DNA of 64,000 nucleotides from Natronocalculus amylovorans. Its GTDB lineage: Archaea > Halobacteriota > Halobacteria > Halobacteriales > Haloferacaceae. Location: NCBI RefSeq assembly GCF_023638035.1, contig NZ_JAKRVX010000002.1, positions 186,001-250,000 on the forward strand. The letters run 5' to 3'. The notes beneath the pieces are model-generated. The model did not search any database, had not been told where the DNA came from, and worked only from the letters and a program-made list of their open reading frames with translations. Below, piece by piece: positions 30,803 to 36,848 of this stretch. A program made the translations under genes and the position numbers. Positions within the stretch are counted from its first letter, which is position 1. Each line of letters starts with the position of its first letter.

Positions 30803-32188
30803 TCAAGAGCGATCGTGGACAACTGACTCGGCCCGTCGCATAATTTCTCGAATCGGAATGTCAGTCGCTTCGGCCATCGCTGCTGCATCGTCGTACTCTG
30901 TGCTCACATCGTACTGTGCTCCGGACCCCGTTGTCGCGACTTTCACTGCGACTTCGTACGTTTCGCCGTCGTGTTCGAGCGAAACGGTCTCAAATGATCG
31001 GTGTGCCGTCCACCGATGGCCTGCACCATGCTCTCGAATGCCGAGCGTCCCCGTTTCTGTGGCAAGAGTATATGCAACCCGTTCTGCATCTTCAGGTCGA
31101 ACAATAACTTTCACCAGGTGCCCTGGACGAGATTTTTTCATTGTCACCGGGACGATCGAAACATCCCGTGCTCCTACCTTTTTGAGCGTCTGTTGTAGCC
31201 CCCCAAGGGTCTCCGGAGTCGCGTCATCAAGATTGGTTTCCAAGACAGAGATCCGTTCTCGTGGGAGTCGATCACCACTTGTCCCGACCGTTGCCCGGAG
31301 GACGTTTGGGTGGTGCGGAAACGTTTTTTTCCCCGCGCCGTAGCCACTGTGTGTCGTGTTGAGTGTTGGGAAATAGTCGACACCATCTGCGATCTCCGCA
31401 AGGATTGCGGCTGCAGTTGGTGTACACAGTTCAGCCTCGATCGGCCCCCCTTGGATCGACCACGCTGCATCGGTCGCAATCTCCGCGACAGCCGGTGCTG
31501 GAATCGGATAGATTCCATGGCTCATTTCAATGTCACCGCCACCAACAGCGATCGGTGTTGTGACGACGCGGTCTGGATTCAGTTCAAAGAGGAGGGCCAT
31601 CGTTCCAGTGATGTCTGCGATCGCATCGTCTGCGCCAACTTCATGGAAGTGTATTGAATCGAGCGACTCGCCGTGAATTTTTGCTTCTGCCTCGCCTAAC
31701 CGCCTGAATGCACCTTTTGCATTGTTGATGACTGGTTTCGGGAGGTCCATCGACTCAACGATACTGATGACTTCTGTATAGCTTCGATGTGGACCGTGGC
31801 CCTCTGCAGGCGTATTATCGCCATGCGTATGTGTATGAGTATGCCCAGGGTCCGTTTCGTCGCTGGGATGTGCCTGCTCGTGCGCGTGGCCAACATGAGA
31901 ATGATCATGGCTATGGCTGTGATCATGACTATGGTCGTGCTCATCATGCGGTTCGTGGCTGTTGGTGTGGCTAGTTGGACTGTCCGTGTCGTGGGATTCT
32001 CCGTCGAGAAGCACAGAGACCGTCGTTGAATCAATTCCATTTTTTACGGTGGTGTCCACCGAGAACGAGAGATTAAGTGCGTCTTCGATCGGTGAGAGAG
32101 CCGATCGGTCAGCCCCCACTGCAATGAGCGCTGCAAGAAGCATATCACCGCTTGCACCGCTCCGGCCATCAAATACCAGTGTGTTCAT
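30803..32188 (-). CDS. larC: Nickel pincer cofactor biosynthesis protein LarC
   Basis: This 461-residue LarC/DUF111 protein starts LVFDGRSGASGDMLLAAL. A strongly histidine-rich insert at about residues 85-150 (HDHSHDHSHSHDHSH and HTHTHTHGD) is typical of LarC and probably holds nickel for insertion into the pincer nucleotide used by lactate racemase and related enzymes. The body includes SIHFHEVGADDAIADI and ETNLDDATPETLG; the latter continues into the DUF111 C-terminal half. larA, larB and larE are not in this window. Start ATG 32188 is used; the upstream frame to 32254 lacks family residues. Confidence 0.9.
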   Translation of the reverse strand: MNTLVFDGRSGASGDMLLAALIAVGADRSALSPIEDALNLSFSVDTTVKNGIDSTTVSVLLDGESHDTDSPTSHTNSHEPHDEHDHSHDHSHSHDHSHVGHAHEQAHPSDETDPGHTHTHTHGDNTPAEGHGPHRSYTEVISIVESMDLPKPVINNAKGAFRRLGEAEAKIHGESLDSIHFHEVGADDAIADITGTMALLFELNPDRVVTTPIAVGGGDIEMSHGIYPIPAPAVAEIATDAAWSIQGGPIEAELCTPTAAAILAEIADGVDYFPTLNTTHSGYGAGKKTFPHHPNVLRATVGTSGDRLPRERISVLETNLDDATPETLGGLQQTLKKVGARDVSIVPVTMKKSRPGHLVKVIVRPEDAERVAYTLATETGTLGIREHGAGHRWTAHRSFETVSLEHDGETYEVAVKVATTGSGAQYDVSTEYDDAAAMAEATDIPIREIMRRAESVVHDRS

Positions 32189-32291
32189 AATCGACAGTAG
32201 CCGGCGGATCGTAAAATAGTCTACATCTCGAATCCGAATCACAGAGTGATACACTTATGTTCGTGCTCGCGCGAACGACAGTCGGGTTCGT

Positions 32292-33083
32292 ATGGAGAAC
32301 GCGGTAAGCACAGTCGAGTATATAACACGATCAACGTCCAGAGTGCAGGTGTTACTATCGCTCAACGATGGAGCGAAAGACCTAGAGACGCTCGAGCTAG
32401 AGATATCCGCGTCGGGGCGAACCGTTCGACGAGCAGTTGATGGACTTATTGAAGAGGGGTGGGTAAACAGATGTGGGCACGAGTACGCCGTCACCAGCAC
32501 TGGAAGTGCATTTGCGACACGGCTGGATACGTTTTTACAACAAACAGAGACACTCCTTGAGCTGCAGACGTTTTTTGAGTGGTTCCCAGACGCAGTGTGT
32601 TCGCTTGATCCGATCGAATTTGAAGATGCAACAGTGACCGTCCAACAGCCACACTCGCCGTACCAGCCACTGGAGCGGACACTTTCGCTAATCGATCTAG
32701 CTGACGAAATTAAGACGATTGCACCGATTAATTCACCATTTTACAATGATTCCTACTACGAGCGGATTACCGATGAGGAGATTACTGCTGAGACTGTGCT
32801 CCCCCATTCGGTATTCGATGCAATCCGAAACGCAGATACTGAACAGTTCCAAGAAGTACTCGACACAGGGAGGGTTGAAGTGTATGTCTGTGACTTACCG
32901 CTCTCATTTGGATTGTTGATAACAGAAAATATGGTTGCTATCGGAGCGTACGATCACAATAACTCTCTGCGGGCATTAATAGAATCAAACACACCGGTTG
33001 TCCGAGAGTGGGCGGAAGATGTCTTTGCGGAGTATAAAAACGACAGCGAGAAAATCACCACGCCGATAAATAATGAGGTATAG
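32292..33083 (+). CDS. Winged-helix regulator with FilR1/DUF1724-like domain
   Basis: This 263-residue protein starts with a winged helix (VEYITRSTSRVQVLLSLNDG, ISASGRTVRRAVDGLIEEGW, RCGHEYAVTSTG). A ligand-like domain follows (about residues 85-250, FEDATVTVQQPHSPYQPLERT, VEVYVCDLPLSFGLLITENM) of the methanogenesis-regulator FilR1/DUF1724 kind, common in haloarchaea. Signal and targets are unknown. It is divergent from larC and runs toward a gene-free region and the cdc48 gene. The promoter region has a CTTATGT at 32254 and a GTTCG/CGAAC arm pair. Confidence 0.78.
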   Translation: MENAVSTVEYITRSTSRVQVLLSLNDGAKDLETLELEISASGRTVRRAVDGLIEEGWVNRCGHEYAVTSTGSAFATRLDTFLQQTETLLELQTFFEWFPDAVCSLDPIEFEDATVTVQQPHSPYQPLERTLSLIDLADEIKTIAPINSPFYNDSYYERITDEEITAETVLPHSVFDAIRNADTEQFQEVLDTGRVEVYVCDLPLSFGLLITENMVAIGAYDHNNSLRALIESNTPVVREWAEDVFAEYKNDSEKITTPINNEV

Positions 33084-33133
33084 TGACAGCCCGTGTCAAA
33101 AAGACAGACCATGTCGTGACGACGCAAGATGAC

Positions 33134-33140
33134 TTTATTA
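33134..33140 (+). promoter_or_regulatory. TATA box of the candidate RNA
   Basis: TTTATTA is centred about 26-27 bp before position 33163. The long RNA stem begins at 33166, so the predicted start fits the structure closely. Confidence 0.5.
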
Positions 33141-33162
33141 TGTTTGTCTCTCTTGTTACTAA

Positions 33163-33288
33163 CGCAGCCGTAATTGAGATAGTTGATCCCCACTGGCGGC
33201 CCTCCTACTGCAATAAATAACGCCGCCCATGTCTCAGTTGCGGTTACACACTGCCCAGTCAGCACAACGCATGCCCTGCGTTGTTTTT
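33163..33288 (+). ncRNA. Candidate structured small RNA of unknown function
   Basis: Bases 33166-33181 can pair with 33230-33245 in a 16-bp helix with four G-U pairs and no mismatch. Inside it, GGCGGC (33195-33200) pairs perfectly with GCCGCC (33222-33227), enclosing a 21-nt loop. The sequence directly 3' of the outer helix is ACA, which recalls box H/ACA guide RNAs. However, the lower stem is longer than usual and no clear K-turn is seen. An 8-bp hairpin with T-tract follows and would end the transcript. The TATA box fits the 5' end. Identity is unknown; a long leader of cdc48 is the main alternative. Confidence 0.5.
33264..33288 (+). terminator. Hairpin plus T-tract ending the candidate RNA
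   Basis: The arms ACAACGCA (33264-33271) and TGCGTTGT (33277-33284) are perfectly complementary around a 5-nt loop and are followed by TTTT. Archaeal termination depends mostly on the T-tract; the stem makes it look like an intrinsic terminator. Confidence 0.55.
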
Positions 33289-33336
33289 GTCTCAAGTACT
33301 CGTATTTCCGTCAACCATTAGTACCATCGTCACCGT

Positions 33337-33351
33337 ACCATGTCACATGGT
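33337..33351. promoter_or_regulatory. Palindromic operator candidate upstream of cdc48
   Basis: ACCATGT-C-ACATGGT is a perfect 7-bp inverted repeat. An overlapping pair, GTCACC (33329-33334) and GGTGAC (33349-33354), extends the symmetry. It lies about 100 bp before the cdc48 start and upstream of a TATA-like element near 33390. The binding protein is unknown. Confidence 0.4.
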
Positions 33352-33453
33352 GACAATGCAGGCTCTCATACAGACGCAAACATATCAATTTAGGCGAACA
33401 AAGGACTTATCTCCAAACCAGACGGAGTTTTCTGTACCCGCTACGAGCCAACA

Positions 33454-35679
33454 ATGAACGAAGTGCAACTTGAAGTGGCGAAGGCGTACCCGAACGATTC
33501 GGGGCGTGGAATCGCCCGTTTAGACCCCGACACACTGCTGCATCTAAAGCTCTCTCCAGGGGATATTATTGAGATTGAAGGTGCAGAACTCACTGCTGCC
33601 AAGGTTTGGCGTGCAGATAGACAGGATTGGAATACAGATACCGTCCGAATTGACGGATTCACTCGACAGAATGCAGACGTTGGAATTGGCGAACGAGTGA
33701 CAATTCGGAAGGCAGAGGCGGAAAAAGCCGAGCGGCTTGTGCTTGCTCCACCGGAGGAGGCAAGCGTCCAGTTCGGCTCTGATGCAGCCGGTATGGTGAA
33801 ACGACAGATCCTCAAACGGCCTGTCGTCCAACGCGACATCGTCCCGGTGATGAGTTCGACAAATCATCCGTTTATGCGATCGCCAGGACAGGCAATTCCG
33901 TTGATTGCAGTGGAAACTGAGCCCGAAGGGGTTTGTCTGATCACTGAGGATACGGATGTCGAACTCCGTGAGGAACCAATCAGTGGATTCGAAAAAACAG
34001 GTGGTGGCATAACCTACGAAGATATCGGTGGCCTCGAAAACGAGATCCAACGCGTTCGTGAGATGGTTGAGCTGCCGATGAAGCATCCGCAGATCTTCAA
34101 AAAGCTCGGCATTGAGCCGCCGCAAGGTGTGTTGCTTCACGGACCGCCTGGAACCGGAAAAACACTGCTCGCAAAAGCAGTCGCCAACGAGACCTCTGCA
34201 AGTTTCTTCTCTATTGCTGGCCCGGAGATCATCTCAAAATACTACGGTGAATCAGAGCAACAGCTCCGAGAGATCTTCGAAGATGCGAAAGACGAGTCAC
34301 CAGCGATCATCTTTATCGATGAATTGGATTCGATCGCCCCAAAACGCGAAGATGTGACTGGTGAAGTTGAGCGGCGTGTTGTCGCCCAACTGCTCACAAT
34401 GATGGACGGCCTCGAGGCCCGTGGTCAAGTGATCGTCATTGCAGCAACAAACCGAGTGGATTCGGTTGATCCAGCACTGCGTCGTCCGGGTCGATTCGAT
34501 CGTGAGATTGAGATCGGTGTTCCCGACGAAGTTGGACGAAAGGAAGTGCTCCAGATCCACACCCGAGGTATGCCGCTTTCGGATGATGTGTCGCTCGATC
34601 ACCTCGCAGATGAGACACATGGCTTCGTTGGTGCAGACATCGAGAGTTTGACCAAAGAAGCGGCCATGAAGGCACTTCGCCGATATCTCCCAGAGATCGA
34701 CCTTGATGAGGAGGATATCCCACCAAGCCTCATTGATCGGATGATTGTCAAGCGGCAGGACTTCACCGGTGCGCTTTCAGAAGTCGAGCCATCCGCAATG
34801 CGAGAGGTGCTTGTCGAACTCCCAAAAATCACATGGGACGACGTTGGCGGTCTCACGGATCCGAAACAAAAAGTCAAAGAAAGCGTCGAGTGGCCGCTGA
34901 CAAATCCCGAAAAATTCGATCGGATGGGTATTGACGCACCGAAAGGTGTGCTCCTCTACGGCCCGCCAGGGACCGGAAAGACGCTCATGGCAAAAGCGGT
35001 TGCAAGCGAGACAAATGCGAACTTCATTTCCGTTCGTGGTCCACAACTGCTTTCGAAATGGGTCGGAGAATCCGAGAAGGCAATCCGACAGACGTTCCGA
35101 AAGGCACGGCAAGTGAGTCCAACAATCATCTTCTTTGATGAGCTGGACAGCCTTGCACCCGCTCGTGGCCAAGAGATGGGCAACAATGTGTCAGAGCGCG
35201 TTGTGAACCAGCTTCTGACTGAGCTTGATGGGCTCGAAGAGATGGGCAATGTGATGGTCATCGGTGCGACAAACCGTCCAGACATGATCGACCCAGCACT
35301 GATCCGATCGGGTCGGTTCGATCGACTTGTCATGATCGGCCAACCCGACGAGGAAGGCAGAGAGCAGATTCTCCGAATCCACACCGGAAACACACCGCTT
35401 GCAGCGGATGTGAGCCTTCGAGAGATCGCGGAGATAACCGATGGCTACGTCGGCTCCGATCTTGAGTCGATCGCTCGTGAAGCCGCAATTGAGGCGCTGA
35501 GAGAGACCGACGATGCCGAGGAAGTCGAGATGCGACACTTCCGAAAGGCAATGGAGTCGGTGCGTCCAACGATCAACGAGGATATTATGTCCTACTACGA
35601 GGATATCGAACAGCAGTTCAAAGGTGGCGGCAGCGATCGATTCCGCGAACAGCGCGACGGACGTATCGGGTTCCAGTAG
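33454..35679 (+). CDS. Cdc48/VAT-type double AAA+ ATPase
   Basis: This 741-residue protein is the archaeal p97/VAT homologue that unfolds proteins and feeds the proteasome. The N-terminal double-psi barrel and second N subdomain ([21 protein letters not shown]) occupy about residues 1-185. The two AAA+ modules follow: Walker [15 protein letters not shown] with [12 protein letters not shown], then [14 protein letters not shown] with [13 protein letters not shown]. Arginine fingers are in [10 protein letters not shown] and RSGRFDRLV. It should form hexameric rings. Haloarchaea usually have several paralogues, so the exact symbol is left open. It is monocistronic with a possible operator upstream. 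Confidence 0.95.
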
Positions 35680-35896
35680 CGTCGCATCGGAATTACACTT
35701 CGACCGGTGTTGGCTCTTTATATGAAATCGGAGTATGATTTCGGTACGGAGATTGTAGGTTGTGTACCAAAAGCAGGCAAGTAAACCCTCAATATCCACT
35801 GATAGTCACACATGTATATTTATTGCCGGTGAATAACGAGTAACTTCATCAAATTTTGAAATTATATGAGCGGTTCATGTTTTTAAATTGCGTTAC

Positions 35897-35905
35897 AAAA
35901 TATAC
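35897..35905 (+). promoter_or_regulatory. TATA box of the beta-helix gene
   Basis: AAAATATAC is centred about 27 bp before the ATG at 35928 and supports that start over the longer open frame from 35856. The 248 bp before the gene are AT-rich and carry a second TATA-like TTTATAT near 35719 with no gene assigned to it. Confidence 0.5.
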
Positions 35906-35927
35906 AGAATACGACTCAGTTGCTGTA

Positions 35928-36848
35928 ATGGAAGAAATGGATCACTCCTACCGGTCGACACGGCGAAAGTACCTCTCGGCAACAGCTGCAATTGGAGGAC
36001 TTGCGATTGCATCCGGAACAGCAAGTGCATGTGACGAGAAAGACAAAAAGAAAGATGATGAGAAGCGTGCTGATGAGCGTCGCGAAGAACTTGATAAATT
36101 TACTGATGGGGTTGAGTCTGAAGACACAGATCCAACAGAGATTGACTCACCAACAGTGATCACAGAGCCCGGTGCGTACGTGATTACCGAGGACATCGAA
36201 ACAGACCTGCAACGAGGTGAGGCCTGTATATTTGTGAAATCGGATAATGTGACAGTCGATGGGCGGGACAATACACTACGAGGTGGCGGTAGCGGTGCAG
36301 GTATCTTTGTCTTAGATTCAACTAATGTCCGTGTTCGAAACTGTAACATAGAGAACTTTTTGTTCGGAGTTACATATTTCGAAGCGGCAGATGATGGTGT
36401 GGTTGATGGGTGTACTGTAACTAACTGCACAGAAGGAATTGGGATTGACGATGCTACCGACAACGTTGTCAGAAACTGTACGCTTCGCGAGTCAAAATTG
36501 GTTGTTGAGTTTGATTCTATTGGAACGGTGTTAATAAATAATGAAATCACAGATGTCCCTGATAGAAATGGGGTCTCTCTTGCAGATTCATCGCGTTGTT
36601 ATGTTATTGACAACAAGGTAACAGGGAGTGAACAATCTGGGCTCTTCTGTGACTCTGTTATCACATCCACGATTAGTGGCAACGAGTTCACAGACAATGG
36701 TGCATACGGCATCGAGCTTGACTTCTGCGAAGATAATCGAATTACGGACAATGATCTCAGCGATAACGAAGATGGTGCATGCAACCTTGAGAACTCAGAT
36801 GCTAATTTATTCAGAGGGAATGATCCCGCGTGCGGGCCAGATGAGTAG
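35928..36848 (+). CDS. Exported right-handed beta-helix (NosD-like) protein
   Basis: This 306-residue protein has a Tat signal STRRKYLSATAAIGGLAIA ending ASAC, possibly a lipobox. A highly charged Lys/Asp/Glu linker follows. From about residue 85, regularly spaced parallel beta-helix repeats follow: NVTVDGRDNTLRGGG, NVRVRNCNIENFLFGV, GVVDGCTVTNCTEGIGI, NVVRNCTL, CYVIDNKVTGSEQSG and TISGNEFTDNGAYGI. Such proteins bind or cleave polysaccharides or act as surface or copper-enzyme accessory factors. No catalytic residues stand out, so a structural surface role is likely. A/T-richer codon use than its neighbours is visible. Confidence 0.78.
   Translation: MEEMDHSYRSTRRKYLSATAAIGGLAIASGTASACDEKDKKKDDEKRADERREELDKFTDGVESEDTDPTEIDSPTVITEPGAYVITEDIETDLQRGEACIFVKSDNVTVDGRDNTLRGGGSGAGIFVLDSTNVRVRNCNIENFLFGVTYFEAADDGVVDGCTVTNCTEGIGIDDATDNVVRNCTLRESKLVVEFDSIGTVLINNEITDVPDRNGVSLADSSRCYVIDNKVTGSEQSGLFCDSVITSTISGNEFTDNGAYGIELDFCEDNRITDNDLSDNEDGACNLENSDANLFRGNDPACGPDE

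Follow-up and report, generated by a model that had tools for sequence, protein, structure and literature searches.

A structured RNA gene upstream of cdc48 in three haloarchaeal genera and its predicted pairing with a near-universal haloarchaeal RNA

The stretch directly upstream of cdc48 in the window (the whole 64,000-nucleotide stretch of Natronocalculus amylovorans DNA that was analyzed) is, judging from its sequence and from that of its relatives, almost certainly a real RNA gene, and its product is very probably independently transcribed and folded into a defined structure. The best explanation, to which we give slightly more belief than doubt, is that this lineage-restricted gene encodes an RNA acting in trans as an antisense RNA or sponge of a second small RNA that occurs in nearly all haloarchaea (the universal RNA). 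Computation gives the anatomy and strand of the gene, the fold, the homologs, the complementarity and the predicted accessibility. The universal RNA is moderately supported as the partner; transcription of the cdc48-linked RNA, contact in the cell and an effect on the partner are what we infer.

A plain DNA similarity search of 60 relatives matched the window alone, and homologs were found through synteny with cdc48. RNA homologs occupy the same place before cdc48 in the window and in six relatives from two other genera: Halalkalirubrum salinum (L024), halophilic archaeon SHRA6 (L025), Halohasta salina (L026), a Haloferacaceae MAG (L027, the same as L159 and placed in the genus of L026) and two further genomes of that genus (L160 and L161). 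At about 100 other cdc48 loci, including those of Halonotius, Haloferax and Halorubrum, the motif ahead of cdc48 is absent except for chance matches or matches to larC codons. As far as searched, the RNA family is confined to the genus of the window and two other genera of its family.

Anatomy and fold of the RNA

The RNA gene and its surroundings in the window comprise the following features.

32292-33083, + strand: gene for a FilR1-type transcriptional regulator (Pfam PF08350, PF25213), the upstream neighbor in the window, L024 and L025
33134-33140, + strand: TATA box TTTATTA, about 27 nt 5' of the predicted start, with similar spacing to P1 in all seven homologs
33161-33288, + strand: predicted small RNA of about 128 nt (promoter spacing, fold, homologs, covariation)
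33166-33181, + strand: 5' strand of helix P1, 16 bp with 33230-33245, with compensatory changes across homologs
33187-33191, + strand: unpaired UCCCC block, proposed pairing seed 1; four to five C here in all seven homologs; complements GGGGA of the universal RNA
33187-33205, + strand: 19-nt block complementary to the universal haloarchaeal RNA except for one A-C mismatch and a bulge on the partner side
33195-33200, + strand: 5' strand of helix P2 (GGCGGC), pairing with 33222-33227
33199-33205, + strand: GCCCUCC, mostly apical loop, proposed pairing seed 2; complements the GGAGGGC loop of the universal RNA
33222-33227, + strand: 3' strand of P2 (GCCGCC), pairing with 33195-33200
33230-33245, + strand: 3' strand of P1 (fold and covariation)
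33264-33288, + strand: terminator-like hairpin (8 bp) with T tract, in this form specific to the window
33406-33411, + strand: CTTATC, TATA-like box of cdc48, 3' of the RNA; in relatives, an ACTTATC-type box precedes the cdc48 ATG by about 45 nt
33454-35679, + strand: cdc48, encoding an AAA ATPase with CDC48_N and CDC48_2 domains (Pfam), the downstream neighbor in all seven homologs

The initial annotation had placed a TATA box, a start at about 33163, a 16-bp helix with G-U pairs running from 33166 and closing with 33230-33245, an inner GGCGGC/GCCGCC stem, an ACA after the helix and an 8-bp hairpin with T tract in this stretch. TTTATTA is read at 33134-33140 as described, the start is predicted close by, at A33161 or A33162, and the helix, inner stem, ACA (33246-33248, adjoining P1) and hairpin all lie where they had been placed. 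Read letter by letter, P1 of the window consists of 16 uninterrupted pairs, 4 of them G-U. The terminator-like hairpin is formed by ACAACGCA (33264-33271) and TGCGTTGT (33277-33284) with a T tract at 33284-33288, and the predicted end of the RNA falls within the U tract.

The computed fold of 33163-33288 (126 nt) has an energy of -41.6 kcal/mol (z -3.69), and none of 200 dinucleotide shuffles is as stable. The reverse strand of the same stretch is ordinary, with a z-score of -1.20 and 24 of 200 shuffles as stable. On the + strand, each of the four P1 positions that depart from Watson-Crick pairing is a G-U pair, and this favors the + strand as the RNA. The RNA is present as a single copy in its genome.

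Conservation and covariation

The homologs share one architecture. A box of the TTTAWTA type (TATTATTA in L160) precedes P1 with similar spacing in all seven, and a count of about 27 nt from the TATA box predicts a start approximately 3-6 nt before P1. P1 varies from 9 to 21 pairs and is followed by an internal loop ending in 4-5 C, a short P2 within or after CUGRC, and a C-rich apical loop, so that the conserved core reads YCCCC-N-CUGRC plus the C-rich loop. Forward z-scores of the seven core RNAs range from -1.35 to -4.58. A T-rich stretch alone lies within about 15 nt of P1 in L026, L160, L161 and L027, and L024 and L025 have none.

The letters of P1 are very different between clades while the pairing is kept. 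When the 40 nt before the motif and the 70 nt starting 31 nt into it were re-paired within and between species, own P1 partners gave a mean of -35.7 kcal/mol vs -24.4 for foreign ones over the seven homologs, and 2 of 5040 re-pairings, the true one counted, were as stable as the true one; the second is presumably the swap of the near-identical strands of L024 and L025. In a trimmed alignment (A3), pairing holds in 97% of P1 cells and two-sided changes occur in 10 of 10 pairs; when the alignment is shifted by 1-3 columns, the share of the structure that is paired drops from 91% to 27-49%. This alignment was made by hand from excised blocks (variable linkers were taken out, and in L024 and L025 one bulged base was taken out and one C added), with P1 taken from each sequence's own fold, so that it leans towards pairing. 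The re-pairing test is the cleaner of the two tests of covariation. Stretches that are complementary but precede the predicted start, such as ACAGG/CCTGT in L027, were for that reason excluded.

The initial annotation had staked its reading on compensatory changes in homologs of the predicted helix, and such changes are present. Its proposal, a new regulatory RNA that has a promoter and a terminator of its own, is thereby well supported, by homologs as well as by compensatory changes, except that the terminator is clear only in the window. Two features that mark an independent haloarchaeal intergenic sRNA are found here: a predicted promoter of its own, and a conserved, covarying structure. 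A DNA feature such as an inverted repeat or a mobile-element remnant, or a fold arising by chance, is scarcely credible given that the RNA is single copy, that P1 letters have been replaced with pairing kept and that the P1 mismatches in the window are all G-U on one strand.

The 10-mer CCCCRCTGGC is also matched in L070, L091 and L098, at a comparable distance from cdc48, where it forms the beginning of larC on the opposite strand (GASGDM codons). A reading of the RNA as a larC remnant was rejected: the window, L024 and L025 have an intact larC elsewhere, and the outer helix is kept by pairing.

Relation to cdc48 and to guide RNAs

The RNA always lies directly before cdc48 and in the same direction, as would a cis-acting leader, attenuator or upstream terminator of that gene. 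However, the ACTTATC-type box about 45 nt 5' of the cdc48 ATG is found in relatives both with and without the RNA, and in the window a terminator-like hairpin separates the RNA from cdc48. The conserved TATA-like box indicates that cdc48 has its own promoter, and suggests that its transcription need not depend on the promoter of the RNA. A cis-acting role is thus quite improbable. In L026 and L027, metG and a small ORF replace the FilR1-type regulator upstream; since the upstream gene differs, the RNA travels with cdc48 and not with the regulator.

The initial annotation had also considered a guide RNA of unusual shape. In the window a hairpin is followed by ACA, as in archaeal H/ACA guide RNAs, but the defining features of these RNAs are not conserved in the homologs. 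ACA lies within 3 nt of P1 (directly after it) in the window only, one of seven; ANA is also found in L160, and neither box directly 3' of the hairpin is found in the other five. Box C (RUGAUGA) occurs in none of the seven RNAs. A simple motif scan for a kink-turn or K-loop in the upper stem (the L7Ae site) revealed no UGA motif common to all seven. No H/ACA-type pseudouridylation pocket is present, the internal loop in the window being 13 vs 2 nt and the best rRNA duplex sites of the core differing among homologs. Rfam 15 gave no match at the gathering cut-off in the window and none at E <= 10 in 33000-33460. The proposal of an H/ACA- or C/D-type guide is therefore mostly refuted, and such a guide is very improbable.

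A near-universal haloarchaeal RNA

A structure model (R2) was built from the seven cdc48-linked RNAs only and run over 169 genomes of the family. Outside the training genera, four of the better matches (L191, L197, L200 and L201; 25.9-28.3 bits) are one and the same element, and most of the remaining matches in the family resemble coding sequence without the motif. With up to 3 mismatches allowed, the 24-mer of this element, CCCCGCTGACGCTTCGGCCCTCCA, occurs in 234 of the 243 haloarchaeal genomes searched from the order, mostly in 1-2 copies, and in 115 of 116 genomes of the class sample (which, as listed, belongs to the same order); the backwards control pattern is found in none of the genomes listed. 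The 24-nt stretch is usually identical letter for letter among haloarchaea.

At the loci inspected, the opposite strand carries a TATA-like box (TTTAAG, TTTATA, etc.) some 27 nt ahead of the probable start, and further downstream there is a terminator-like hairpin followed by a T-rich tract. The universal transcript, UGACGCUUCG...GGAGGGCCGAAGCGUCAGCGGGGACC..., is therefore read as the reverse complement of the motif. It is laid out as UGACGCUUCG, a loop with GGAGGG, CGAAGCGUCA, then GCGGGGACC and the terminator hairpin. The element is probably not protein coding, since the loop changes in length by one base (TTTGG or TTGG) and all positions are conserved. The GGAGGG of the loop resembles a Shine-Dalgarno sequence.

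The genome under study carries two exact copies, both outside the window (L238 and L239, 1300-1720, - strand; G000:C12:70370-70393 and 288634-288657), which are loosely linked to the cdc48-linked RNA at about 70 and 149 kb. The universal RNA has no Rfam match and is unannotated in the two plasmid records checked; its motif was not found in phage and viral collections, and the literature yielded no sequence match or name. Only 4 of 27 studied Haloferax volcanii sRNAs (H225.2R, hts10, htsf_359 and IG1.7/htsf_242) occur in at least 7 other haloarchaea (PMC3956466), and one of these four may be the universal RNA. Genomes of the Halohasta genus contain further, diverged copies of the universal RNA (L255, L257 and L258), in which the box is of the TTATT type and the stem is altered but keeps partial pairing.

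Complementarity between the two RNAs

In reverse complement, the conserved core of the cdc48-linked RNAs matches the part of the universal RNA that is conserved best. In the window the conserved block reads UCCCCACUGGCG followed by GCCCUCC and complements CGUCAGCGGGGA and GGAGGGC of the universal RNA. In other homologs the region of the second block is C-rich without identical letters, and this block (CCUCC) is loosely conserved. The core of the window, L024 and L025 carries an A that gives an A-C mismatch despite the invariant partner.

The computed duplex energy of the seven cores with the universal RNA sums to -263.7 kcal/mol, a value reached by 0 of 7553 control windows (rRNA and 1716 G-matched windows included) and 8 standard deviations better than that of shuffled cores (-187.5 +/- 9.3 kcal/mol). 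For single homologs, the universal RNA is equaled in fit by 0-146 of 9670 control windows, the weakest fit being that of L027 (146 of 9670); for the window the figure is 1 of 4244. In local alignment the antisense orientation scores higher than the sense orientation, not significantly for every homolog singly. All of the homologs thus appear to share complementarity to another RNA, in a test that is partly circular and not independent because the partner was found with a model built from these same RNAs. By extrapolation, some windows, up to about 10 per whole genome, would fit as well by chance; the fit gains weight because universal RNAs are few and the partner is among them.

The pairing blocks are predicted to be accessible in both RNAs. 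The C block has a mean predicted unpaired probability of 0.96 in the window and 0.59-0.96 over the seven RNAs, and that of CCUCC at 33201-33205 is at least 0.9; in the universal RNA, GGGGA and the GGAG at the loop tip are predicted to be mostly unpaired. Folded together, the full-length RNAs gain little (about -5 kcal/mol net), each being stable by itself. A target in rRNA was rejected, as the best rRNA duplex site of the core differs from homolog to homolog and no site is common to them.

C-rich seeds are frequent among regulatory RNAs, and every homolog has several C-rich stretches predicted to be unpaired. A structured trans-acting sRNA could pair through such loops with Shine-Dalgarno-like or other G-rich sites in several mRNAs, and its resemblance to the universal RNA would then be incidental. 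Against this, what is conserved is a particular sequence (CUGRC following the C block) and not C-richness alone, and none of the 1716 G-matched windows fits the seven homologs as well as the universal RNA does; we regard this reading as unlikely, yet worth keeping in mind.

The likeness could also be one of descent only: the gene may be an inverted and since diverged duplicate of the universal RNA gene, with a promoter gained for itself and no action on its parent. The blocks stand in the same order in both RNAs. Three genomes of the Halohasta genus carry a copy of the universal RNA gene about 7-8 kb 5' of cdc48 and the RNA next to it, a linkage that would suit descent from an inverted duplicate, but in the genome under study the linkage is loose. 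However, it is precisely the complementary letters that have been retained while P1 turned over, and no intermediate form was seen, which leaves descent without action improbable.

Proposed mode of action and comparison with known systems

In the antisense or sponge reading, the TATA box would drive an RNA of about 100-130 nt from an independent gene. The RNA would fold as a long hairpin in which P1 forms the base, UCCCC is exposed in an asymmetric internal loop, and a short P2 leads to the C-rich apical loop. P1 would serve as a clamp whose letters do not matter and which displays the two single-stranded C-rich blocks. These blocks would start pairing with the single-stranded GGGGA linker and the GGAGG loop of the partner, and pairing may spread through the stems of both RNAs. 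The cdc48-linked RNA would in this way act in trans as an antisense RNA or sponge of the universal RNA.

A fuller version of this reading, which we offer tentatively and hold to be rather doubtful as a whole, is that of an archaeal anti-sRNA that arose as the opposite strand of a duplicated universal RNA, had its outer helix freely replaced and now sequesters or modulates the universal RNA. The Shine-Dalgarno-like GGAGG loop of the latter may act on the anti-Shine-Dalgarno sequence, so that an RNA mimic and anti-mimic would form a pair acting on translation. That the GGAGG loop binds the anti-Shine-Dalgarno CCUCC of 16S rRNA, placing the two RNAs in translation control, is speculation.

The two RNAs are alike in that their cores are identical or nearly so in reverse complement, they are similar in size, and each has its own TATA box and a hairpin near the 5' end. 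They differ in that the universal RNA is transcribed from the other strand of the shared motif, has no P1 helix and is almost invariant across haloarchaea, whereas the cdc48-linked RNA is limited to three genera and is fast changing. In bacteria, sRNA sponges and anti-sRNAs are small RNAs that pair with another small RNA. They resemble the proposed RNA-on-RNA mode but belong to another domain of life, and the interaction described here is a predicted one. Like the intergenic sRNAs of Haloferax volcanii, which include s194, IG1.7 and Hts4 (PMC6104027), a larger collection (PMC3956466) and sRNA132 (PMC6560208), the cdc48-linked RNA is a stand-alone RNA within the range of about 70-130 nt; the partners proposed for the H. 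volcanii sRNAs, in contrast, are mRNAs or the ribosome. In the literature on these intergenic sRNAs, no haloarchaeal sRNA was found reported as antisense to another sRNA.

Haloarchaeal sRNAs are numerous and mostly species specific, without known targets; 22 of 27 H. volcanii sRNAs are confined to one species (PMC3956466). The homologs of the cdc48-linked RNA span three genera with strong evidence of compensatory change, and its candidate partner is specific enough to be tested. The universal RNA is itself remarkable as a 24-letter stretch in nearly all haloarchaeal genomes that is absent from Rfam. If the two RNAs do pair, this would represent RNA-on-RNA control in archaea and offer a handle on the function of the universal RNA.

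Other features near cdc48

In many relatives larC is directly divergent to cdc48, and the gene for the FilR1-type regulator intervenes in the window (30803-33083), L024 and L025. Between the RNA and the cdc48 promoter, the window contains a dyad, TGTCAC-ATG-GTGACA, at 33341-33355. Related sequences (TATGGTATACNGTGACA) are found in relatives, with a GGTAGGGATTTGTA element just 5', and the dyad is possibly a regulator site of cdc48. Downstream of cdc48, an ORF at 35856-36848 contains right-handed beta-helix/NosD repeats and a possible signal sequence near its start.
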